From NCBI GenBank assembly GCA_023257515.1, contig JALRCA010000176.1, positions 1 to 33,562 on the forward strand: a stretch of 33,562 nucleotides of DNA, read 5' to 3'. The first letter of the stretch is position 1. The number at the start of each line of letters is the position of its first letter. A model generated the notes under the pieces. That model was given only the letters and a program-made list of their open reading frames with translations, ran no database searches and was not told where the DNA came from. The stretch is from Aeromicrobium sp. (GTDB lineage: Bacteria > Actinomycetota > Actinomycetes > Propionibacteriales > Nocardioidaceae). This document shows, piece by piece, positions 519-23,225 of this stretch. A program made the position numbers and the translations under genes.

Positions 519-577
519 CTGAGCGTGACGATCCCGGGCCCAAACGGCCGATGTGCGCCCGGGATCGTCACGCTCAG
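519..577. repeat. 59-bp near-perfect palindrome, family A copy 1
   Basis: Two perfectly complementary 21-base arms (519-539 and 557-577; the left arm begins CTGAGCGTGACGATCCC) flank a 17-base centre containing ACGGCCGAT. It lies between birA and the PH-domain gene, 17 bases after the birA stop codon. As RNA it would form a long GC-rich hairpin and could end birA transcription, but no T-tract follows. A second copy of identical length, with one arm mismatch, lies at 22375-22433, so it behaves as a dispersed REP-like element and not as a gene-specific terminator. Confidence 0.85.
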
Positions 578-3348: not shown

Positions 3349-3843
3349 ATGAGCGCATCGCCACGTGTCGGCATCGTCATGGGTTCGGACTCGGACTGGC
3401 CCACCCTGCAGGCCGCGGCCGAGGCGCTCGGCGAGTTCGACGTGCCCTACGAGGCCGACGTCGTGTCGGCCCACCGGATGCCCGACGAGATGCTGGCCTA
3501 CGGTCGCGACGCGCACGGGCGTGGACTCGAGGTGATCATCGCGGGCGCCGGGGGAGCGGCCCACCTGCCCGGCATGCTCGCCGCCGTGACGCCGCTGCCG
3601 GTCATCGGCGTCCCGGTGCCGCTCAAGTACCTCGACGGCATGGACTCGCTGCTCTCGATCGTGCAGATGCCGGCCGGCGTGCCGGTCGCGACGGTCTCGA
3701 TCGGCGGCGCCCGGAACGCCGGACTGCTCGCGGTGCGCATCCTGGCCGCGGGCGATCCCGACCTGACCCAGCGCATGCTGGAGTTCCAGGAGGCGCTGGC
3801 CGACCTGGCCCGCGCCAAGGGCGCGAACGTCCGCGACCGCTGA
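3349..3843 (+). CDS. purE: N5-carboxyaminoimidazole ribonucleotide mutase PurE (class I)
   Basis: A 164-residue cytoplasmic enzyme that moves the carboxyl group of N5-CAIR to C4, giving CAIR, directly after PurK. The class I active-site elements are all present: GSDSDW (Ser13 and Asp16, matching Ser16 and Asp19 of E. coli PurE), SAHRMP (His42 and Arg43, matching His45 and Arg46) and the [11 protein letters not shown] loop near residue 66. The downstream [20 protein letters not shown] segment is also typical. Length is normal for the octameric class I enzyme. It converges on mqo across a long palindrome. Confidence 0.97.
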
Positions 3844-3860: not shown

Positions 3861-3923
3861 CGCTGGCAGTGACGTATCTACCGCGACACGCTGGCGTGTC
3901 GCGTCAGAACGTCACTGCCAGCG
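3861..3923. repeat. 63-bp nested palindrome, family B, between convergent purE and mqo
   Basis: The outer arms (3861-3875 and 3909-3923, CGCTGGCAGTGACGT and its complement) are 15 perfect base pairs. The inner arms (3882-3891 and 3894-3903, CGCGACACGC and its complement) are 10 perfect pairs with a two-base loop, and a short TCT/AGA pair lies between them. The whole element folds into one long hairpin. It could act as a bidirectional terminator for purE and mqo, although no T-tract is seen. Its arms differ in sequence from family A but its build is the same. Confidence 0.85.
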
Positions 3924-3955
3924 AGGTGGGGGGTCAGCCAGCGAGGTGGAGGTCA
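3917..3955. repeat. Tandem duplication of a ~20-bp unit at the mqo stop
   Basis: The unit beginning GCCAGCGAGGTGG and ending GGTCA occurs at 3917-3936 and again at 3937-3955, differing by one inserted base and one substitution. The first unit overlaps the right arm of the palindrome; the second contains the mqo stop codon (TCA on this strand, 3953-3955). It looks like a local slippage or element-border duplication. Confidence 0.7.
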
Positions 3956-5476
3956 GGCGAGCTTGAGGGTCTTGTCGGTCCAGGCGCGCAGGTCGGCGAG
4001 CAGGCCCGGGTCGTCGGCGAGCGTGACGCCGTAGGACGGCACGAGCTCCTTGAGCTGCGGGCGCCAGCCCTCGATCTGACCGGGGAAGCAGCGCTCGAGC
4101 ACGTCGAGCATGGCCGAGACGGCTGTCGATGCGCCGGGCGAGGCGCCCAGCAGGCCCGCGATCGAGCCGTCGCCCGAGCTCACGACGGTCGTGCCGAACT
4201 CGAGCGCGCCACCACGGCCCTTCTTGCGCACGACCTGCACGCGCTGACCCGCGGTGATGATCTCCCAGTCGTCGTTCTCGGCCAGGGGCGCGAACGCCCG
4301 CAGCGCCTCGACCTTGCCGCGTCGGGTCTTGGCCAGCTCGGTCACGAGGTACTTGATGAGCGACCAGGACGTCACGCCGACCGCAGCCATCGGGCCGATG
4401 TTCGAGGGGCGGATCGAGAACGGCAGGTCGGTGAACGAGCCCTCCTTGAGGAACTTGGGCGTCCAGCCGGCGTAGGGGCCGAAGAGCAGCGAGCGCTGGC
4501 CGTCGATGACCCGCGTGTCGAGGTGCGGCACCGACATGGGCGGGGCGCCGACGGCGGCCATGCCGTAGACCTTGGCCTCGTGCTTGGCCGCGACCGTCTC
4601 GTCGAGGCAACGGATGAACTGCCCGCTGACCGGGAACCCGGCGAAGCCCTTGATCTCCTCGATGCCCGACTTCTGCAGCAGCGTGATCGCACCGCCGCCG
4701 GCGCCGACGAACACGAAGCGGGCCGAGATGTTCAGGGTCTCGCCCTGCGTGCGGTCCTTGACCTTGACGCGCCACGTGCCGTCGGTGTCGCGGTGCAGGT
4801 TCTTGACGTGGTGGTCGTAGCGGATGTCCGCGCCCTGCGAGGCGAGGTGGCCGAGCAGCTGCTTGGTGAGAGCGCCGAAGTCGACGTCCGTGCCGTGGTC
4901 GGTCCAGCTGACGGCGACGTCCTCGGACTCGTCGCGGCCCTCGGCCATGAGGGGCAGGCGGCGAGCGAACTCGGCGCGGTCGTCGATGAACTCCAGGCCC
5001 TCGAAGAGGGGGTGGCCCGCGAGGGCGTCGTAGCGCTGGCGCAGGTAGTCGATGTTGTCGGCTCCGCTCACGAAGCTGACGTGCGGCACCGGGTTGATGA
5101 ACGAGCCGGGATCACGCAGGACGCCGTTCTCGATGCCGTGCGCCCAGAACTGACGCGACAGCTGGAACTGCTCGTTGACCGTGATGGCCTTGCTGATGTC
5201 GACCGAGCCGTCGGCCAGCTGCGGCGTGTAGTTGAGCTCGCACAGCGCGGAGTGACCGGTGCCGGCGTTGTTCCAGGGTCCGCTGCTCTCGAGCGCCGGC
5301 TCGTCCAGTCGCTCGAGGACCGTGATCGTCCAGTCGGGCTGCAGGGTCTTGAGCAGCGTGCCGAGGGTGGCACTCATGACGCCCGCGCCGACGAGCAGCA
5401 CGTCGGTGGTGATGCGGCCGGGTGCGGCCGAGGAGCGGCGGGCAGGCAGGTTCGCGTCCGTGGTCAACGCTGACAT
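3953..5476 (-). CDS. mqo: Malate:quinone oxidoreductase
   Basis: A 507-residue FAD-dependent peripheral membrane enzyme that oxidises malate to oxaloacetate and passes electrons to the quinone pool, serving the TCA cycle and respiration. The FAD-binding segment [14 protein letters not shown] is at residues 27-39, and the signature [20 protein letters not shown] lies at about 61-80. SIRPSNIGP and related family blocks are present to the C-terminus. The start is uncertain: the ATG at 5476 has AGGAG directly before it with no spacer, and an in-frame GTG at 5515 has GAAGG directly before it. I prefer the ATG. An 8-base inverted repeat (5495-5502 with 5532-5539, GTGGAGCG) lies upstream and could form a leader hairpin. 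It is divergent from the acyl-CoA dehydrogenase gene. Confidence 0.95.
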
Positions 5477-5685: not shown

Positions 5686-6861
5686 ATGAGCAGCGCCGCG
5701 TCCGAGATGTTCGCCCTCTCCGAGGAGCACCAGGCGATCCGCGAGGCGGTGCGTGCCGTGGCCGAGGCGAAGATCGCGCCGTTCGCGGCAGAGGTCGACG
5801 AGGAGGCGCGGTTCCCGTCCGAGGCGAACGAGGCGCTGACGGCGGCGGACTTCCATGCCCCGCACGTGCCGGAGGAGTACGGCGGTGCCGGAGCGGACGC
5901 CCTCGCGACCGTGCTGGTGATCGAGGAGGTCGCGCGGGTGTGCGTGTCGAGCTCGCTCATCCCGGCGGTCAACAAGCTGGGCTCGCTGCCGGTGCAGATC
6001 GGCGGTAACGAGGAGATCAAGGCGAAGTACCTGGGCAAGCTGGCCGCGGGCGAGGGCGGGTTCTCCTACTGCCTGTCCGAGCCCGATGCCGGGTCGGACG
6101 CTGCGAACCAGAAGACCAGGGCCGTGCGCGAGGGTGACGGCTGGGTGCTGAACGGCGTCAAGCGCTGGATCACGAACGCGGGGGAGTCCGAGTACTACAC
6201 GGTGCTCGCGCAGACCGACCCGGAGAAGCGCTCGAAGGGCATCACGGCATTCGTGGTGGAGAGGTCCGACGAGGGCGTCTCTTTCGGTGCGCCGGAGAAG
6301 AAGCTCGGCATCAAGGGCTCGCCGACGCGCGAGGTCTACCTCGACGACGTGCGCATCCCGGAGGACCGCATCATCGGCGACGTGGGCGAGGGCTTCTCGA
6401 TCGCGATGAGGACGCTCGACCACACCCGCGTCACGATCGCCGCGCAGGCCGTGGGCGTCGCGCAGGGCGCGCTGGACTATGCGCTCGGCTACGTCCAGGA
6501 GCGCAAGCAGTTCGGCAAGCCGGTCGCGGAGTTCCAGGGCCTGCAGTTCCTGATCGCCGACATGGGCATGAAGATCGAGGCGGCGCGCCAGCTGACCTAC
6601 GCGGCCGCCGGTCGCTCCGAGCGCGGCGACAAGGACCTGACGTTCTTCGGCGCCGCGGCCAAGGCGTTCGCCTCCGACGTCGCGATGCAGGTGACGACCG
6701 ACGCGGTGCAGCTGCTCGGCGGCTACGGCTTCACGCGTGACTACCCGGTCGAGCGGATGATGCGCGACGCCAAGATCACGCAGATCTACGAGGGCACCAA
6801 CCAGGTCCAGCGCATCGTCGCCGCCCGCCAGCTGCTGTCGGGGATCCAGAGCACGCTCTGA
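5686..6861 (+). CDS. Acyl-CoA dehydrogenase
   Basis: A 391-residue FAD enzyme of the short/medium-chain acyl-CoA dehydrogenase family, introducing the alpha-beta double bond of an acyl-CoA and passing electrons to electron-transfer flavoprotein. Signature 1 is YCLSEPDAGSDAA, followed by the FAD/substrate segment NGVKRWITNAG. Signature 2 is the C-terminal QLLGGYGFTRDYPVERMMRDAK. The catalytic base is the Glu of IYEGTNQVQR (about residue 369), placed as in medium-chain enzymes. The exact chain length or branching of the substrate cannot be read from the sequence. The ATG at 5686 has GAGGAG six bases upstream; a TACGAT box at 5648-5653 is a possible -10. The gene stands alone, so pathway context is lacking. 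Confidence 0.93.
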   Translation: MSSAASEMFALSEEHQAIREAVRAVAEAKIAPFAAEVDEEARFPSEANEALTAADFHAPHVPEEYGGAGADALATVLVIEEVARVCVSSSLIPAVNKLGSLPVQIGGNEEIKAKYLGKLAAGEGGFSYCLSEPDAGSDAANQKTRAVREGDGWVLNGVKRWITNAGESEYYTVLAQTDPEKRSKGITAFVVERSDEGVSFGAPEKKLGIKGSPTREVYLDDVRIPEDRIIGDVGEGFSIAMRTLDHTRVTIAAQAVGVAQGALDYALGYVQERKQFGKPVAEFQGLQFLIADMGMKIEAARQLTYAAAGRSERGDKDLTFFGAAAKAFASDVAMQVTTDAVQLLGGYGFTRDYPVERMMRDAKITQIYEGTNQVQRIVAARQLLSGIQSTL

Positions 6862-6888: not shown

Positions 6889-7031
6889 GCTGATTCCCAG
6901 GCTCGCCGGGGAATCAGCGCGGCGGGCACGGTTCGTGTGCGCGATGCCCGGGTCGTGACGCCCGTGTCGTAAGGGAAACCGGGCGTGGTGCGGGCTGGGG
7001 GTCGGATTCCCAGGCGAGCCTGGGAATCAGC
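6889..7031. repeat. Inverted palindrome doublet (REPIN-like), family C, between convergent genes
   Basis: A 19-base sequence at 6889-6907 (GCTGATTCCCAGGCTCGCC) occurs as its exact reverse complement at 7013-7031. Each end is also a palindrome on its own: 6889-6918 has 10-base arms with a 10-base loop, and 7005-7028 has 10-base arms (GATTCCCAGG) with a 4-base loop. The stop codon of the sigma factor gene (7027-7029) lies inside the second hairpin. The 105-base interior shows no gene. Two palindromes in opposite orientation flanking a spacer is the layout of REP doublets; the hairpins may also end transcription from both sides. Confidence 0.8.
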
Positions 7032-8169
7032 GGCCGGCGGAGTTGAGGCGGGCCGCCTGGCGGGTCAGGTGGTCACGCTCGGCGAGGGAGTCGGCGCGCT
7101 CGGCCGCCACGGCGTAGAGGCGGGCGGCCGTCGCCAGGTCGCCGTCGCGCTCACGCAGGTGGGCCTCGACCGCCGTGTAGCGGGGCAGGGACTCGTCGAG
7201 CGCAGCCAGGGCCGCCAGTCCGGCGCGCGGGCCGTCGGCCTCGCCGAGCGCGACCGCGCGGTTCAGCAGCACGAGCGGGTTGTCGGTCAGGGCCGCCAGC
7301 TCGTCGTACCACTCGACGACTTGCACCCAGTCGGTCTCCTCAGCCGAGCGGGCGTCGGCGTGCAGCGCGGCGATCGCGGCCTGGGCCTGGAACTCGCCCA
7401 GCCGGTCCTGGGCGAGCGCCGCCTGCAGGAGGGCCACGCCCTCGGCGATCGCGTCCGTGTCCCACCGACTCCGGTCCTGCTGGGCGAGGGGCACGAGCGA
7501 GCCGTCCGGAGCGGTGCGGCTCGCCCGGCGGGCGTGGTGCAGCAGCATGAGCGCGAGCAGGCCCGACACCTCCGGGTGGTCGAGCTCGACCCGCAGCTGA
7601 CGGGCCAGCCGGATCGCCTCGGCCGCCAGGTCGACGTCACCGGAGTAGCCCTCGTTGAACACCAGGTAGAGCACCCGCAGCACCGTGGCCACGTCGCCCG
7701 GGGCGTCGAGGCGGACGCCCGCGACCGTGCGCTTGGCGCGGCTGATGCGCTGCGCCATCGTCGCCTCCGGCACCAGGTAGGCCCGCGCGACCTGGCGGGT
7801 CGTGAGGCCGCCGACGGCGCGCAGGGTCAGCACCACGGCGGAGGCCGGGGTCAGGGACGGGTGCGCGCACAGGAAGTACAGCTGCAACGTGTCGTCCCGT
7901 CCCGACACGGGACCCGGCTCCGGCTCGTCGTCGACCGCCTCCTCGCGCCCGCGGCGCGCCGACTCCGAGCGCACGGCGTCGAGGAACCGGCGCCACGCGA
8001 CCGTGACCAGCCAGGCCTTCGGGTCACGTGGCGGCGACTCGTCCCACGTGCGCACCGCCTCGACGAGCGCGTCCTGCACCGCGTCCTCGGCCCCCGCGAA
8101 GTCGGCTCCGCGGCGGACGAGGATCGCGGTGACCGGCGGCGTCAGGGCCCGCAGGAGGGACTCGTCCAC
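7027..8169 (-). CDS. ECF42-type RNA polymerase sigma factor with C-terminal helical extension
   Basis: A 380-residue ECF sigma factor. Residues 1-~75 form region 2 (AEDAVQDALVEAVRTW, then DPKAWLVTVAWRRFLDAVR). Region 4 lies at about 111-155 and carries the helix-turn-helix LTTRQVARAYLVPEATMAQRISRAK. The remaining ~220 residues are an Ala/Leu-rich helical (TPR-like) extension with the family blocks LRVLYLVFNEGY and LVLLNRAVALGE. This build is that of the ECF42 group, in which the extension and not a separate anti-sigma factor is thought to control activity, and which is linked to DGPF proteins, exactly as here. Translation starts at the GTG at 8169, one base after the stop of the DGPF gene, so translation is probably coupled. 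There is no obvious anti-sigma gene nearby. Confidence 0.92.
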   Translation of the reverse strand: MDESLLRALTPPVTAILVRRGADFAGAEDAVQDALVEAVRTWDESPPRDPKAWLVTVAWRRFLDAVRSESARRGREEAVDDEPEPGPVSGRDDTLQLYFLCAHPSLTPASAVVLTLRAVGGLTTRQVARAYLVPEATMAQRISRAKRTVAGVRLDAPGDVATVLRVLYLVFNEGYSGDVDLAAEAIRLARQLRVELDHPEVSGLLALMLLHHARRASRTAPDGSLVPLAQQDRSRWDTDAIAEGVALLQAALAQDRLGEFQAQAAIAALHADARSAEETDWVQVVEWYDELAALTDNPLVLLNRAVALGEADGPRAGLAALAALDESLPRYTAVEAHLRERDGDLATAARLYAVAAERADSLAERDHLTRQAARLNSAGR

Positions 8170-11852: not shown

Positions 11853-12191
11853 TCAGCCGCAGGACACGCAGACGGGCGTCGCCGGCAGCGCCTCGAGCCG
11901 CCCCGCGGCGATCGCCCGGCCGCACGTGGTGCACGTGCCGTAGCTGCCGTCGTCGACCCGGACCAGGGCGGCGTCGACCTGGGCGAGCCGTCGACGGGCG
12001 GCGTCGCCGAGGGAGGAGATCATCGAGCGCTCGACGGCGATGGTCGTGCCCTCGGGGTCGTGCTCGTCGTCGAGGTTGCTGTCGCGCGCCGCGGCGACGA
12101 TCTCGTCGAAGCTCGCGTCGCTCGAGCGCAGCTGGCCGAGCGCCCGGCGGCGCTCCTCGACCAGTCGGGCTCGCGCCACCTCGGGATCCAT
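11853..12191 (-). CDS. DksA/TraR-type C4 zinc-finger protein
   Basis: A 112-residue protein with a helical coiled-coil N-terminal part containing the DDEHDPEG segment (residues 41-48), typical of DksA/TraR relatives. The C-terminal C4 zinc finger is intact (Cys87, Cys90, Cys108, Cys111; C-x2-C-x17-C-x2-C). Such proteins reach into the secondary channel of RNA polymerase or regulate transcription otherwise; for short actinobacterial members the role is not well defined. The ATG at 12191 is chosen because the family begins there; an upstream in-frame extension runs through the palindrome at 12248-12301 and has no family similarity. A TACCGT box lies six bases upstream. Confidence 0.85.
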   Translation of the reverse strand: MDPEVARARLVEERRRALGQLRSSDASFDEIVAAARDSNLDDEHDPEGTTIAVERSMISSLGDAARRRLAQVDAALVRVDDGSYGTCTTCGRAIAAGRLEALPATPVCVSCG

Positions 12192-12247: not shown

Positions 12248-12301
12248 ACGAAGGATGCTGCGTTCCACACGACCGGTCGTGCGGGAAGCAGCATCCTTCG
12301 T
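12248..12301. repeat. 54-bp nested palindrome, family D, between divergent genes
   Basis: The outer arms (12248-12261 and 12288-12301, ACGAAGGATGCTGC and its complement) are 14 perfect pairs. Inside are a TTCC/GGAA pair and a perfect inner dyad CACGAC-CG-GTCGTG. It lies upstream of both the DksA/TraR gene and the LCP gene at 12424, so unlike families B and C it does not sit at a transcript end and cannot simply be a terminator. Confidence 0.8.
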
Positions 12302-12423: not shown

Positions 12424-13875
12424 ATGCAGGACGACCCCGCCGCCGAGCCGCGCCCCGAGCGCTCGCGCACGACGATCGCCTCGGACCGGATCCAGTTCCG
12501 CCGCGGCCTGACGCTGACCCTCATGACCCTCGTCATGCCGGGGTCGGCCCAGCTCGTGCTGGGCAACAAGCGCGTCGGCCGCATCGCGGTCCGGGTCTGG
12601 CTCGCCTGTCTGGCGGTCGGACTCCTCGTGCTCGTCCTCGCCCTCACGTCGCGCACCGGTCTGTTCGCCCTGGCGACGAACCCGCGGATCCTGACCCTCG
12701 GCCGCTGGCTCCTGATCGCCGGCGCCGTCGCGTGGGTCGCCCTCATGATCGACGCGTGGCGTCTCGGCCAGCCCCTGCGCATGGCGCGCGGGCATCGTCT
12801 CTGGATGACCGGGCTCAACGGGGTCCTGTGCTTCGCGACGGCGGGCGTGATGTTCTTCGCCGCCCACCTCGTCAACGTCCAGAGCGGCTTCATCGACACC
12901 GTCTTCGCCTCGTCGACGACGAGCAAGCCCGCGGCCGGTCGCTACAACGTGCTGATGATGGGCACCGACTCCGGTCCCGACCGCAGCGGCATGCGCCCGG
13001 ACTCCATGACCGTCGCCAGCATCGACGCCGAGACCGGTCGCACCGTCCTGATCGGCCTGCCGCGCAACCTGCAGGACGTGACGTTCCCGCGGGGCTCCTT
13101 CATGCACAAGAAGTTCCCTCGCACGTTCGACTGCGAGGGCTGCTACCTCAACTCGGTCAACACGTGGGCCAACGACCACCAGGCCGAGCTCGGCGCCGGC
13201 AAGGACCCGGGCATCAAGGCCACGATGGACGCGGTCGAGTCGATCACCGGTCTCGAGCTCAACTACTACGCGCTCGTCAACATGCGCGGTTTCTCCAAGC
13301 TCATCGACGCCGTCGGAGGCGTCACCGTCAACGTGCGCGAGCGCACCGCCATCGACGGCATCGGCAGACCCATCAGCGGATGGATCGAGCCCGGCCGGCG
13401 CAAGCTCAACGGCAAGCAGGCCCTCTGGTACGCGCGCAGCCGCGTCATGAACGACGACTTCTCGCGCATGGGCCGCCAGAAGTGCGTCATGAACGCGATG
13501 CTCCAGCAGCTCAGCCCCAGGAAGGTGCTCCTCAACGTCGAGGACATCGCGGACTCCAGCGCCACCCTGCTCCACACCGACATCCCGGCCAAGGACCTGA
13601 ACGTGTTCATGGACCTCGCCCTCAAGGCACGCCACGAGAAGGTCTCGACCGTCTCGCTCGTGCCGCCGGCGATCTACACCGGCAACCCCGACTACCCCAA
13701 GGTCAGGCGCATGGTCGCGGCCGCGGTCGACCGGGCGGAGGGCAAGGCGACGAAGAGGCCGACGACCGGCATCGTGGCCACCCGTCTGAAGCTGCCCGAC
13801 CTCGACGCGGCCGACGAGCCGGCGAAGGACCCCCGCAAGGCCAACCAGAGTGACAACCTGTCCAGCGCCTGCTGA
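12424..13875 (+). CDS. LCP family protein with four-helix membrane domain and C-terminal Cys (paralog 1)
   Basis: A 483-residue protein. The first ~150 residues hold four membrane helices (about 29-47, 54-74, 93-111, 128-149), the first followed by a PGSAQxxxGxxRxGR motif. The LCP domain follows from about 172, with Asp182 (GTDSG), Arg191/Asp193 (RPDS) and Arg214/Asn215 (LPRNL) at the usual pyrophosphate-binding positions. The domain is extended and contains a Cys pair (DCEGC, 237-240). The last residues are SDNLSSAC, closely matching the end of the next gene. It probably transfers a lipid-linked glycopolymer to the cell wall outside the membrane. GTGAGGAC five bases before the ATG is the ribosome site. 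About 80 bases separate it from its paralog. Confidence 0.92.
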   Translation: MQDDPAAEPRPERSRTTIASDRIQFRRGLTLTLMTLVMPGSAQLVLGNKRVGRIAVRVWLACLAVGLLVLVLALTSRTGLFALATNPRILTLGRWLLIAGAVAWVALMIDAWRLGQPLRMARGHRLWMTGLNGVLCFATAGVMFFAAHLVNVQSGFIDTVFASSTTSKPAAGRYNVLMMGTDSGPDRSGMRPDSMTVASIDAETGRTVLIGLPRNLQDVTFPRGSFMHKKFPRTFDCEGCYLNSVNTWANDHQAELGAGKDPGIKATMDAVESITGLELNYYALVNMRGFSKLIDAVGGVTVNVRERTAIDGIGRPISGWIEPGRRKLNGKQALWYARSRVMNDDFSRMGRQKCVMNAMLQQLSPRKVLLNVEDIADSSATLLHTDIPAKDLNVFMDLALKARHEKVSTVSLVPPAIYTGNPDYPKVRRMVAAAVDRAEGKATKRPTTGIVATRLKLPDLDAADEPAKDPRKANQSDNLSSAC

Positions 13876-20617: not shown

Positions 20618-21507
20618 TGGTGCGCCCCTCGTCGGCCGCTCGGCTGCGCCGTCGCGCCCGGCTCCGGGAGGTCTGGTCGGAGTTCGCCTCGCAGCGCTCC
20701 GGTCTGGTCGGTCTCGTGCTCCTGCTCGTGATCGTCGTGCTCGCGCTGCTCGCGCCGCTCCTGGTGCCGATCGAGCGGCTCGACGTCACGCGCGTCACGG
20801 CTCCCTCCAACGCGGCGCCGAGCGGTGGCCACTGGTTGGGCACCGACCCGCAGGGACGCGACGTCCTGGCGGTGCTGCTGTGGGGCTCGCGGGCCTCGCT
20901 CCTCGTGGGCTTCGCGGCGACCGCCGTCTCGATGGTGCTCGGCACCGTCGTCGGCATGGCCGCCGGCCACTTCCGCGGGCTCTGGCAGGGCGTCATCCTG
21001 CGCTTCGTCGACTTCTTCCTGGTGGTGCCGAGCCTCATGCTCGCGATCGTGCTGTCGTCGGTGCTCTCGCGCGGGCTCGGCACGATCATCCTCGCGATCG
21101 GTGTCACGAGCTGGGCCCAGACCGCGCGCATCGTGCGGGCGCAGACGCTCACGATCGAGTCACGTCCCTACATCGAGCGGTCGATCGCACTCGGCGCCGG
21201 CGACGTGCACGTGCTCGGCCGTCACGTGCTGCCGTCCGTCATGCCGCTCGTGCTGGCCAACACGACGCTCGCCGTGGGATCGGCGATCATCGCGGAGTCG
21301 ACGCTGTCGTTCCTGGGCCTCGGCGACCCGACGACGTTCTCGTGGGGCTCGATGCTCAAGTCCGCCCTCGACACGGGCGCGGCCACGGCGGGCTACTGGT
21401 GGTACGTGCTGCCGCCGGGCCTGGCGATCGTCGTGGTGGTCCTGTGCTTCACGCTCGTGGGCCGCGCCCTCGAGTCCGTCCTGAACCCCACGCTGAGGTC
21501 ACGATGA
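20617..21507 (+). CDS. Peptide ABC transporter permease, DppC-type
   Basis: A 296-residue partner permease. After a basic N-terminus and a first helix (about 31-51) it has the GTDPQGRDVLAVLLWGSRASLLVG block that marks the DppC/OppC branch. The EAA loop is RPYIERSIALGAGDVHVLGRH, and SFLGLGDPTTFSWG is near the C-terminus, both family-typical. It forms a heterodimer with the preceding permease. The ATG at 20617 shares its A with the preceding TGA, and its own TGA overlaps the ATPase ATG (ATGA), so translation is coupled through this part of the operon. Confidence 0.94.
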   Translation: MVRPSSAARLRRRARLREVWSEFASQRSGLVGLVLLLVIVVLALLAPLLVPIERLDVTRVTAPSNAAPSGGHWLGTDPQGRDVLAVLLWGSRASLLVGFAATAVSMVLGTVVGMAAGHFRGLWQGVILRFVDFFLVVPSLMLAIVLSSVLSRGLGTIILAIGVTSWAQTARIVRAQTLTIESRPYIERSIALGAGDVHVLGRHVLPSVMPLVLANTTLAVGSAIIAESTLSFLGLGDPTTFSWGSMLKSALDTGAATAGYWWYVLPPGLAIVVVVLCFTLVGRALESVLNPTLRSR

Positions 21508-23225
21508 GCGAGTCGACTCACGACGGACCCGCCCTCGCGTGGCGCGACGTCACCATCACGTACGCGACCGGGGTCGTCGCGGTGGACGGGGTCGACCTCG
21601 TCGTCCCGCGCGGTGCCACGATCGGCGTCGCGGGGGAGTCCGGCTCCGGCAAGTCGACGCTCGTCATGGCGGCCCTGCGACTCCTGCCCAGGGACGCCCG
21701 CCTCGAGGGCACCGTCGAGCTCGACGGCGAGGACGTCGGCGCCATGACGTTCGGCCGGCTCCGGGCGGTGCGATGGACGTCGGCCGCCATCGTGTTCCAG
21801 GGGGCGATGCACTCGCTCAACCCCGTGCGGACCGTCGAGCGGCAGGTCGCCGAGGCCCTGGAGCTGCACCGGGACGAGCAGTACCCGGACGCCGCCGCGC
21901 GGCGGGCACGCGTCCTGGAGCTGCTCGGACTCGTCGACCTGCCCGCCTCGACCGCGGGGGCCTATCCGCACGAGCTGTCCGGCGGCCAGAAGCAGCGCGT
22001 CATGATCGCGCTCGCGCTGGCGTGCGACCCCGACGTGATCATCGCCGACGAGCCGACGACCGCGCTCGACGTCGTGGTCCAGGCCCAGGTGCTCCGCGTG
22101 CTCTCCGGCCTGGTGGCGGATCGCGGCCTGACCCTGGTGATGATCAGCCACGACCTGGCGGTCCTGGCGGCCGTGTGCGAGCGCATCGTCGTCATGCGCG
22201 ACGGGCGCGTCGTCGAGGAGGGCCTCTCCCGCGAGGTGCTGACCGACCCGCAGCACGAGCACACGCGTGAGCTGGCGGCCGCGTTCCCGGTGATCGGCGA
22301 CGAGTCCGCCCGCTACACCGTCGGCCACGACCGCGAACGCATCCTCCCCACCACCGCCCCGGCCCTCGCCCCTGCTGAGCGTGACGATCCCGGGCGCGAC
22401 ACGGCCGATTCCGCCCGGGATCGTCACACTCAGGGGGTGGGTGGGGCGGTGCTGGCGGTGCGCGACCTCGTGGTCGACTTCCGCTCGCGGGGACGCGCCG
22501 TGCGTGCCGTCGACCACGTGAGCCTGGAGTGCGCGCCCGGCGAGATCGTGGCGCTCGTCGGTCAGTCGGGATCGGGCAAGACGACGCTCGCACGCTCGAT
22601 CCTCGGTCTGCAGCGCCCCACGTCGGGCGAGGTGCTGTTCGAGGGCGAGCCGATGCCGCGCGACCGGGCCGGTCTGCGGGCCTACCGCCGCCGCATCCAG
22701 TTCGTGCTGCAGGACCCGTCCGCCTCGCTCAACCCCAAGCACACGGTCTACGAGGCCGTCGCCGAGGGGCTGCGGATCCACCGGCTCGAGCGCGAGGGCG
22801 TCGACGAGGCGGCGCGCGTCGCCCAGGCGCTGGAGCAGGCCGAGCTGACGCCCACCGAGCGCTACGCGACGTCGCTGCCGTCCCAGCTCTCGGGCGGCCA
22901 GCGCCAGCGCGTGGTGATCGCGGGCGCTCTGGCGCTGGAGCCCAGCTACCTGGTCGCGGACGAACCCGTCGCGAGCCTCGACGCCTCGGTGCGAGGCGAG
23001 ATCCTCGCGCTGCTGCTCCGCCTGCGGCGCGACCTCGGGCTCGGTGCCCTGGTCATCACCCACGACCTCGGACTGGCGTGGAACGTGGCGGATCGCGTCC
23101 TGGTGATGCACCAGGGCCGGATCGTCGAGGACGGACCGGTCGAGGAGGTCCTGCTCGACCCGCAGCACGACTACACCCGCTCGTTGCTCGAGGTCGTGCC
23201 GTCACGTCTCGGGAGCCACGCATGA
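21504..23225 (+). CDS. Fused DppD-DppF peptide ABC transporter ATPase
   Basis: A 573-residue protein with two complete ABC ATPase domains. Domain 1 (about 10-265) has Walker A GESGSGKST (44-52), LSGGQ (158-162) and IIADEP (179-184). Domain 2 (about 315-573) has Walker A GQSGSGKTT (353-361), LSGGQ and VADEPVASLD, with both H-loops present (ISHD, ITHD). It powers the two permeases; one polypeptide replaces separate DppD and DppF subunits. The linker is unusual: residues 291-310 are encoded precisely by a copy of the 59-base palindrome (22375-22433) that also occurs at 519-577. The reading frame stays open through it. The start is coupled (ATGA) to the permease stop. Confidence 0.95.
   Translation: MSESTHDGPALAWRDVTITYATGVVAVDGVDLVVPRGATIGVAGESGSGKSTLVMAALRLLPRDARLEGTVELDGEDVGAMTFGRLRAVRWTSAAIVFQGAMHSLNPVRTVERQVAEALELHRDEQYPDAAARRARVLELLGLVDLPASTAGAYPHELSGGQKQRVMIALALACDPDVIIADEPTTALDVVVQAQVLRVLSGLVADRGLTLVMISHDLAVLAAVCERIVVMRDGRVVEEGLSREVLTDPQHEHTRELAAAFPVIGDESARYTVGHDRERILPTTAPALAPAERDDPGRDTADSARDRHTQGVGGAVLAVRDLVVDFRSRGRAVRAVDHVSLECAPGEIVALVGQSGSGKTTLARSILGLQRPTSGEVLFEGEPMPRDRAGLRAYRRRIQFVLQDPSASLNPKHTVYEAVAEGLRIHRLEREGVDEAARVAQALEQAELTPTERYATSLPSQLSGGQRQRVVIAGALALEPSYLVADEPVASLDASVRGEILALLLRLRRDLGLGALVITHDLGLAWNVADRVLVMHQGRIVEDGPVEEVLLDPQHDYTRSLLEVVPSRLGSHA
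22375..22433. repeat. 59-bp palindrome, family A copy 2, inside the ATPase coding sequence
   Basis: The 21-base arms 22375-22395 and 22413-22433 differ from perfect complementarity at one position. The left arm is identical to the left arm of the copy at 519-577. The 17-base centre shares ACGGCCGAT with that copy. The element plus one base (22374) makes 20 in-frame codons between the two ATPase domains. It encodes a charged linker rich in Asp and Arg. Confidence 0.88.

Follow-up and report, generated by a model that had tools for sequence, protein, structure and literature searches.

Dispersed palindrome families of an Aeromicrobium genome, several of which bracket predicted nuclease genes

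Introduction

The closest described relatives of the elements considered here are those of the REP/REPIN-RAYT system ('REPtron', TnpA-REP). Like the present elements, these are short extragenic palindromes that occur in many copies, are lineage-specific and bracket their partner gene with the same palindromes. The two systems differ in the partner, which here is an AbiEi-Vsr-like nuclease and not a Y1 HUH transposase. They also differ in the elements themselves, which in the DNA studied here are 54–143 nt long and, by eye, show no GT[AG]G foot (GTAG) on any of the listed copies. Because the defining HUH enzyme is missing, the system is not filed under REP/RAYT.

A second comparison is with the CGTC-tagged REPs (Di Nocera et al. 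2013), likewise dispersed palindromes that, as far as the excerpted text of that paper goes, are without a RAYT partner and are built from stems of 8–9 bp with a CGTC tag and CCA-like tails (PMC3733652). The arms of three families described below (A, B and D) are longer, at 14–21 nt, and follow a layout other than the one given in that excerpt (PMC3733652). Many copies of family D end in TTCGTC but, by eye, are without the CGTC-REP layout. For one large class of RAYT-less palindromic repeats the same excerpt leaves the spreader open (PMC3733652), and the pairing reported here suggests where to look.

On the protein side, the C-terminal region of the nuclease matches the Vsr/DUF559/MTES_1575 group, PvuRts1I and 3hrl by profile; these differ in that no description of them as partners of dispersed palindromes was found. 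In the portion of the source consulted, MTES_1575 is presented as a Vsr REase domain found in giant proteins with many domains (PMC3710099). The N-terminal region matches PADLOC models of AbiEi, a likeness shared with AbiE type IV toxin-antitoxin systems, from which the present genes differ in carrying a nuclease-like domain on the AbiEi-like ORF itself. Among the matches listed in open-licence PMC full text there was no apparent description of a link between such a nuclease and palindromes.

Palindromes of the window

The window, meaning the whole stretch of 33,562 nucleotides that was analysed, is contig C198 of a 3.54-Mb draft genome of Aeromicrobium sp. (G000, here the source genome) that consists of 288 contigs and is 87.7% complete. 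Labels for genes of the window, and for those next to the units described below, come from reading the sequences, library annotation being used for the nuclease only. The features are as follows.

519–577, unstranded: family A, copy 1 (A1), perfect arms of 21 nt round a centre of 17 nt
16–501, + strand, and 651–1154, + strand: genes on either side of A1, presumably birA-like and PH-like
3861–3923, unstranded: family B palindrome, between the convergent genes 3349–3843 (+ strand) and 3953–5476 (- strand), which we take to be purE-like and mqo-like
6889–7031, unstranded: family C, two palindromes of 30 nt lying 83 nt apart, with further dyads enclosed
5686–6861, + strand, and 7027–8169, - strand: convergent neighbours of C, which overlaps the end of the second gene by 5 nt
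12248–12301, unstranded: family D palindrome, between the divergent genes 11853–12191 (- strand) and 12424–13875 (+ strand)
22375–22433, unstranded: family A, copy 2 (A2), with one mismatch, in frame within the ORF 21504–23225
21504–23225, + strand: host ORF of A2, outside the palindrome-nuclease system, presumably a double ABC-ATPase with A2 in its linker

The arms of A1 are CTGAGCGTGACGATCCCGGGC, and its hairpin score is 21. An earlier note on this DNA had described four palindrome families, and all four are real, lie where it placed them and are multi-copy in the source genome. The layout it gave for A, B and D, perfect outer arms round a short centre, is borne out by the 21-nt arms of A1 and by B and D, which are as it described. 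It was also right that one palindrome lies inside a gene (A2) and that D lies between divergent starts. Its description of the families as unrelated applies to C and D, but not to A and B, which have GCTG...GTGACG in common. One hybrid element (G000 C76:5307-5367) has a left arm of B type and a right arm of A type.

Folded as RNA, the five elements, A and B together with part of their flanks, give z-scores of -6.4 to -9.6, and in each case none of 200 shuffles is equally stable. Hairpins scoring at least 15 number 24 in 400 kb of the source genome, compared with 0 in one triplet shuffle of the same sequence. Rfam gives no match above the gathering score in the window. Selection on RNA structure within family A was considered and rejected, since compensatory change (0.868 at paired positions, 0.857 in shuffles) shows no excess.

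The D-type elements of a second genome, G018 (L153-L158, L265, L266 and L272), span about 115 nt and consist of four nested palindromic arms. In the source genome, several D copies (on C114, C262 and C277) still have a third arm at a distance of about 38 nt, which gives them the look of the four-arm form minus one arm.

Dispersal and lineage specificity

Counting each arm in the full genome, a check proposed in the earlier note, finds all four families multi-copy, whereas the reversed-pattern controls total 0 to 3 matches. With up to two mismatches allowed, the A arm has 29 forward and 31 reverse matches in the source genome (control 0 and 0). The corresponding figures are 15 and 15 for the B arm (control 1 and 2), 40 and 51 for the C arm (control 1 and 1) and 16 and 14 for the D arm (control 0 and 0). 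The sequence fetched from the source genome holds 21 elements or clusters of B, 43 of C and 20 of D.

At up to one mismatch, the A arm occurs 54 times in the source genome (28 forward, 26 reverse). One or two matches, each of them mismatched, are present in 18 of the 117 related genomes compared, and the others have none; the reversed arm has a single match in one genome of the 117. A named-genome collection, in which the window's own record is perhaps absent, has no exact copy of the A palindrome. Relatives of the D arm (two mismatches) occur in species-specific spellings, with 94 in G018, 92 in G039, 29 in G005, 24 in G028 and fewer elsewhere, and C-like arms are present in a few species. 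Families A to D are dispersed, lineage-specific repeats: many-copy, extragenic palindromes of the kind by which REP/RAYT systems are recognized.

Uptake-sequence-like single arms were considered as an alternative for family A and rejected: a match to the A arm typically has its partner at a fixed offset, has a partner arm of more degenerate sequence, or lies where the end of a contig truncates the element. The exceptions are four isolated matches with two mismatches (C44, C152, C239 and C267). Seven draft contigs (C12, C30, C76, C79, C133, C202 and C266) end inside or beside family A palindromes. The contig pairs C30/C133 and C202/C266 each seem to represent the same site on two contig ends, which suggests that the hairpins break the assembly; C133:24, the same site as C30:64, is kept in the A counts. 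One C element is found with the same neighbouring letters in G045:C305 (L170) and at G000 C46:34300, possibly reflecting a contig shared between bins.

The sites of the palindromes differ between species, as a comparison proposed in the earlier note shows. In the birA-PH spacer, where A1 lies, the hairpin score is at most 11 in all 18 congeners examined and reaches 14 in none of them; at the D site it reaches 14 in none of five. The purE-mqo site of B carries long hairpins (score at least 14) in 4 of 10 congeners, of other sequence. The situation named in that note as favouring ordinary terminators or operators, single-copy palindromes conserved in position, is not what is seen, A to D being multi-copy and the A1 and D sites without a hairpin of that score in the congeners examined. 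Orthologues of the ORF 21504–23225 in six congeners are 70.8–71.9% identical to it and, by eye, lack A in the linker. In three of the six (L174, L176 and L177) the linker instead carries a different, TTTCGACAAGCTCAA-like repeat, also identified by eye. With A2 in the source genome and this other repeat in three congeners, the linker (window 22340–22460) has the appearance of a spot where repeats land. Inspection by eye of the listed copies of A to D revealed no target-site duplication of the kind that marks MITEs, and no empty site is near enough in sequence to define the ends. The REP-type reading of the earlier note, in the sense of dispersed, lineage-specific elements whose sites vary between species, is upheld by these comparisons.

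Placement relative to genes

Gene calls for the analysis of placement came from a codon-usage script; copies of B that overlap A were removed, and mismatch limits tighter than those of the earlier count dropped chance matches. Three of the families have most of their intergenic copies within 60 nt 3' of a stop codon, with 21 of 24 such copies of A (random mean 8.7), 21 of 21 of B (7.6) and 30 of 42 of C (12.8); for each, none of 1000 random placements gave as high a count. For family D the count after stops is close to random (8 of 20, random mean 7.2), and 10 of its 20 copies are near starts. Copies of family B seem to occur in two orientations.

A predicted nuclease gene between matching palindromes

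In the source genome, close pairs of same-family palindromes were found for B on C79, for C on C52 and for D on C104. Each pair encloses one ORF, and the three ORFs are of the same type.

C79:18216-19199: partner nuclease gene of B, between two B copies
C52:14256-15242: partner nuclease gene of C, between C copies
C104:658-1539: partner nuclease gene of D, between D copies

The genes between the close pairs on C59, C242 and C277 are of other kinds. A hairpin census covering 400 kb each of the source genome, G018 and a third genome, G034, followed by a search for same-family pairs, returned two G034 pairs with a gene of this nuclease type between them. The other pairs in the census are an E pair of the source genome round a gene that is presumably of MFS type, a pair of terminator-like hairpins round two genes in the same genome, and five adjacent, gene-free pairs in G018.

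A profile built from the bracketed genes returned eight rows, corresponding to seven distinct genes, among 1944 predicted proteins from 2.0 Mb. All seven have the same palindrome on both sides by eye, five of them having been picked beforehand for that feature and two (L279 and L218) not. In all seven units a single predicted ORF of about 0.9–1.0 kb lies between the palindromes, which leaves the unit without an AbiEii partner; at least four of the seven ORFs end inside the downstream palindrome. An apparently decayed nuclease gene in G034 (L278:13930-14934, E 2.4e-13) has a palindrome beside it and gave no flank match in a quick test.

The seven-protein profile matched 109 of 118 genomes of the genus, family and order, the source genome included. 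For 30 loci, one per genome, the two 410-nt flanks were compared by a local score that does not itself demand a palindrome. The score reaches 16 in 26 of these loci and 20 in 23, whereas only 12 and 1, respectively, of 537 control genes of 600–1400 nt do so (Fisher p 1.3e-31 for the first threshold, 9.1e-34 for the second). The controls were drawn from three genomes (source, G018 and G034), the nuclease loci from many. The sole control gene scoring at least 20 is an MFS-type gene between two E palindromes (L246:7347-8694). A further 20 loci, picked by hand from the match list with their flanks unseen at picking, gave 18 with a score of at least 16. This brings the total to 44 of 50 loci with matched flanks (41 of 47 when the seeds L296, L297 and L330 are left out) against 12 of 537 controls. 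Most of the listed stretches shared by the two flanks are palindromic. Twelve of the 50 loci are from outside the genus, and 10 of these pass; the six loci lacking matched flanks are L298, L299, L317, L319, L336 and L340. When called genes were used, several of which were misplaced, matched flanks had a median score of 23.5 and a null of mismatched flanks a median of 10, with 36 of 870 null pairs at 16 or more.

Six of the eight profile matches in the source genome were examined, and their nucleases are bracketed by six different palindrome families (B, C, D, E, F and G). Further copies of E, F and G, at a single site in the case of G, are present elsewhere in 0.74 Mb of source sequence. Within 0.43 Mb of G034, L331 and L332 have palindromes that were found at the unit only, and that of L294 was found only within 2.3 kb of its unit, so that dispersal is established for some pairs and not for every one. 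G018 holds a second family (L265, L266, L267 and L272), with two hairpins about 22 nt apart at several places, and a similar palindrome brackets the nuclease gene of G028 at L313.

The units share a further feature. Of the 50 loci, 32 carry the TCCACAGG box upstream of the ORF and none carries it there in reverse orientation, compared with 2 of the 537 control upstream regions (p 1.5e-37). It lies 45–158 nt ahead of the start of the profile match, for example in L326, L327 and L328. We take it to resemble the right part of a DnaA box, and one might guess that such a likeness fits a coupling to replication.

The predicted protein

The ORF is predicted from profile matches to encode an AbiEi-like N-terminus followed by a Vsr/DUF559-like PD-(D/E)XK nuclease. 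In an alignment of 24 members, E239, D269, E278 and G281 are invariant, and G264, H284, D293 and R296 are conserved in at least 90%. Both the order of the motifs and the presumed catalytic role of these residues are, we assume, as expected for a Vsr/DUF559-like PD-(D/E)XK domain. At E values up to 0.1, Pfam assigns DUF559 to 11 of the 24 proteins, AbiEi_4 to 9 and MTES_1575 to 6, the DUF559 support being weak per protein. The commonest AbiEi model of PADLOC matches the N-terminal region in 22 of 24; this domain is presumably a winged helix. Profile matches in the PDB to the C-terminal region include 3hrl, an endonuclease-like protein (E 3.3e-5), and PvuRts1I (E 0.005), and NCBIfam gave one weak unrelated match. 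A tblastn search with the D-type nuclease found nothing among 72,556 records of plasmids and 50,697 of phages, and two scans of viral contigs returned no relative.

Parallel change of palindromes and nucleases

Palindromes and nucleases change in parallel. Over 1085 between-genome pairs from 48 loci with matched flanks, the similarity of the nucleases correlates with that of the palindromes (rho 0.305), a value that none of 500 permutations reaches (maximum 0.228). The co-variation is modest, the palindrome of the nearest relative being the best match for 13 of the 48 loci. For the C nuclease of the source genome the nearest relative is G018 L342 and for the B nuclease G034 L331, and in both cases the palindrome ranks first of 42.

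The neighbouring genes of many units are shared by several species, and these conserved chromosomal positions suggest that units are mostly inherited. The neighbours of L307, L324/L325, L327 and L341 lie 44–120 nt apart and are free of the unit in a congener, the neighbour genes of L341 being only 44–55% identical. In one orthologous group from six species, the two palindromes of a locus match with a median score of 27 (at least 16 in five of six; L317 scores 13), whereas between orthologues the median is 7 and the maximum 17. Two other orthologous groups give 26 within loci vs 17 between, and 25 vs 7.5. A match within the locus combined with a mismatch between orthologues suggests that both flanking palindromes tend to change together.

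Interpretation

These observations are best accounted for by a partnership like that of REP and RAYT but built on an unrelated nuclease, with the palindromes spread by that nuclease. The probability of this reading is put at roughly 60%. The palindromes would be short, dispersed, REP-like elements of several families, each family having its own partner gene in the form of an ORF of about 0.9–1.0 kb between two copies of the same palindrome. The bracketed gene would be the 'master' unit, and solo palindromes, such as A to D of the window, its gene-free copies. The N-terminal domain may bind the cognate palindrome as a duplex or a hairpin, and the nuclease may nick it; hairpin copies could then be pasted at new sites during replication or repair, and copies of A, B and C would accumulate after stop codons. 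A nuclease acting as mobiliser would be the simplest account of cognate pairing together with dispersal. The suggestion in the earlier note that several families would imply several enzymes agrees with the finding that B, C and D each bracket their own nuclease gene, encoding what look like dedicated enzymes.

It is unlikely, although conceivable, that the palindromes are spread by something else and that a selfish nuclease gene cuts the palindromes and either inserts into them or is retained by them. Nucleases of the PD-(D/E)XK type are familiar as cutting enzymes, not as transposases acting alone, solo palindromes outnumber the nuclease genes, and some neighbour pairs are without the unit, all of which would suit such homing. 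However, different families in one genome have different nucleases, and the palindromes of orthologous units differ by species yet match on both sides of the gene. Cognate recognition would therefore be needed under homing as well.

Quite improbable, too, is a function as operators, in which the palindromes would be sites for an AbiEi-like regulator, one pair autoregulatory and the rest a regulon, with no movement. An N-terminal region resembling AbiEi in as many as 22 of 24 proteins, a palindrome upstream of each nuclease gene and the position of D, found near starts and after stops in similar numbers (10 and 8 of 20), are in keeping with this. It does not explain the second copy downstream, inside which the ORF ends in at least four of seven units, or the position of A, B and C after stop codons, and it is at odds with the absence of A from orthologous sites and the copy inside a coding linker.

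There is very little probability in the view that the families are ordinary bidirectional terminators kept alike through concerted evolution. The enrichment of A, B and C just after stops, and the presence of other long hairpins at purE-mqo in congeners, speak for it, and these three families, in which no T run was seen by eye, could act as bidirectional terminators. Against it, D is without a stop bias, and neither end of A1, B, C or D has a T run beside it by eye. A terminator scan calls none of these four, although with loops limited to 3–8 nt it is blind to A. Compensatory change in A does not exceed that of shuffles, and the bracketing of one gene family is left unexplained. The assertion of the earlier note that the palindromes are not terminators is borne out only partly, the placement of A, B and C after stops weakening it and that of D not.

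True REP/REPIN elements moved by a RAYT, the mobiliser that the earlier note had proposed, would fit the multi-copy extragenic palindromes and the REPIN-like build of C (paired short palindromes with inner dyads), but are scarcely credible here, since the Y1_Tnp profile (PF01797) matched none of 49 genomes of the genus, the source genome included, vs 5 of 14 control genomes, which, as far as the profile is sensitive, refutes a RAYT for the genus. The G018 genome, assembled as one contig and rated 100% complete, combines its 94 D-arm matches with no Y1 match.

If the nuclease-borne reading is correct, genes listed as AbiEi in a defence-system library (as many as 22 of the 24 members) would be re-labelled. 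At about even odds, the reading may extend to Actinobacteria as holders of mobile palindromic DNA moved by an AbiEi-Vsr-like nuclease and not by an HUH or DDE transposase, with several co-evolving, sequence-switching pairs per genome; proteins labelled AbiEi antitoxins or DUF559 would then be the enzymes behind RAYT-less repeats. The analysis names a specific, testable partner for several palindrome families at once, with a clear control, and offers many natural nuclease-palindrome pairs for studying the joint change of an enzyme and its DNA target.

The partner of family A

No nuclease gene lies near copies of A in the fetched flanks (up to 1.5 kb). Because several copies of A are at contig ends, its partner may be in an assembly gap. 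Judged by the likeness of the palindromes, this partner should belong to the clade of C79 of the source genome and L331 of G034. A palindrome of G034 with A-like arms (CCCGCTGAGTGCGACG) brackets a nuclease gene, and among the compared loci in other genomes the nearest relative of this nuclease is the one on C79, the partner of B.
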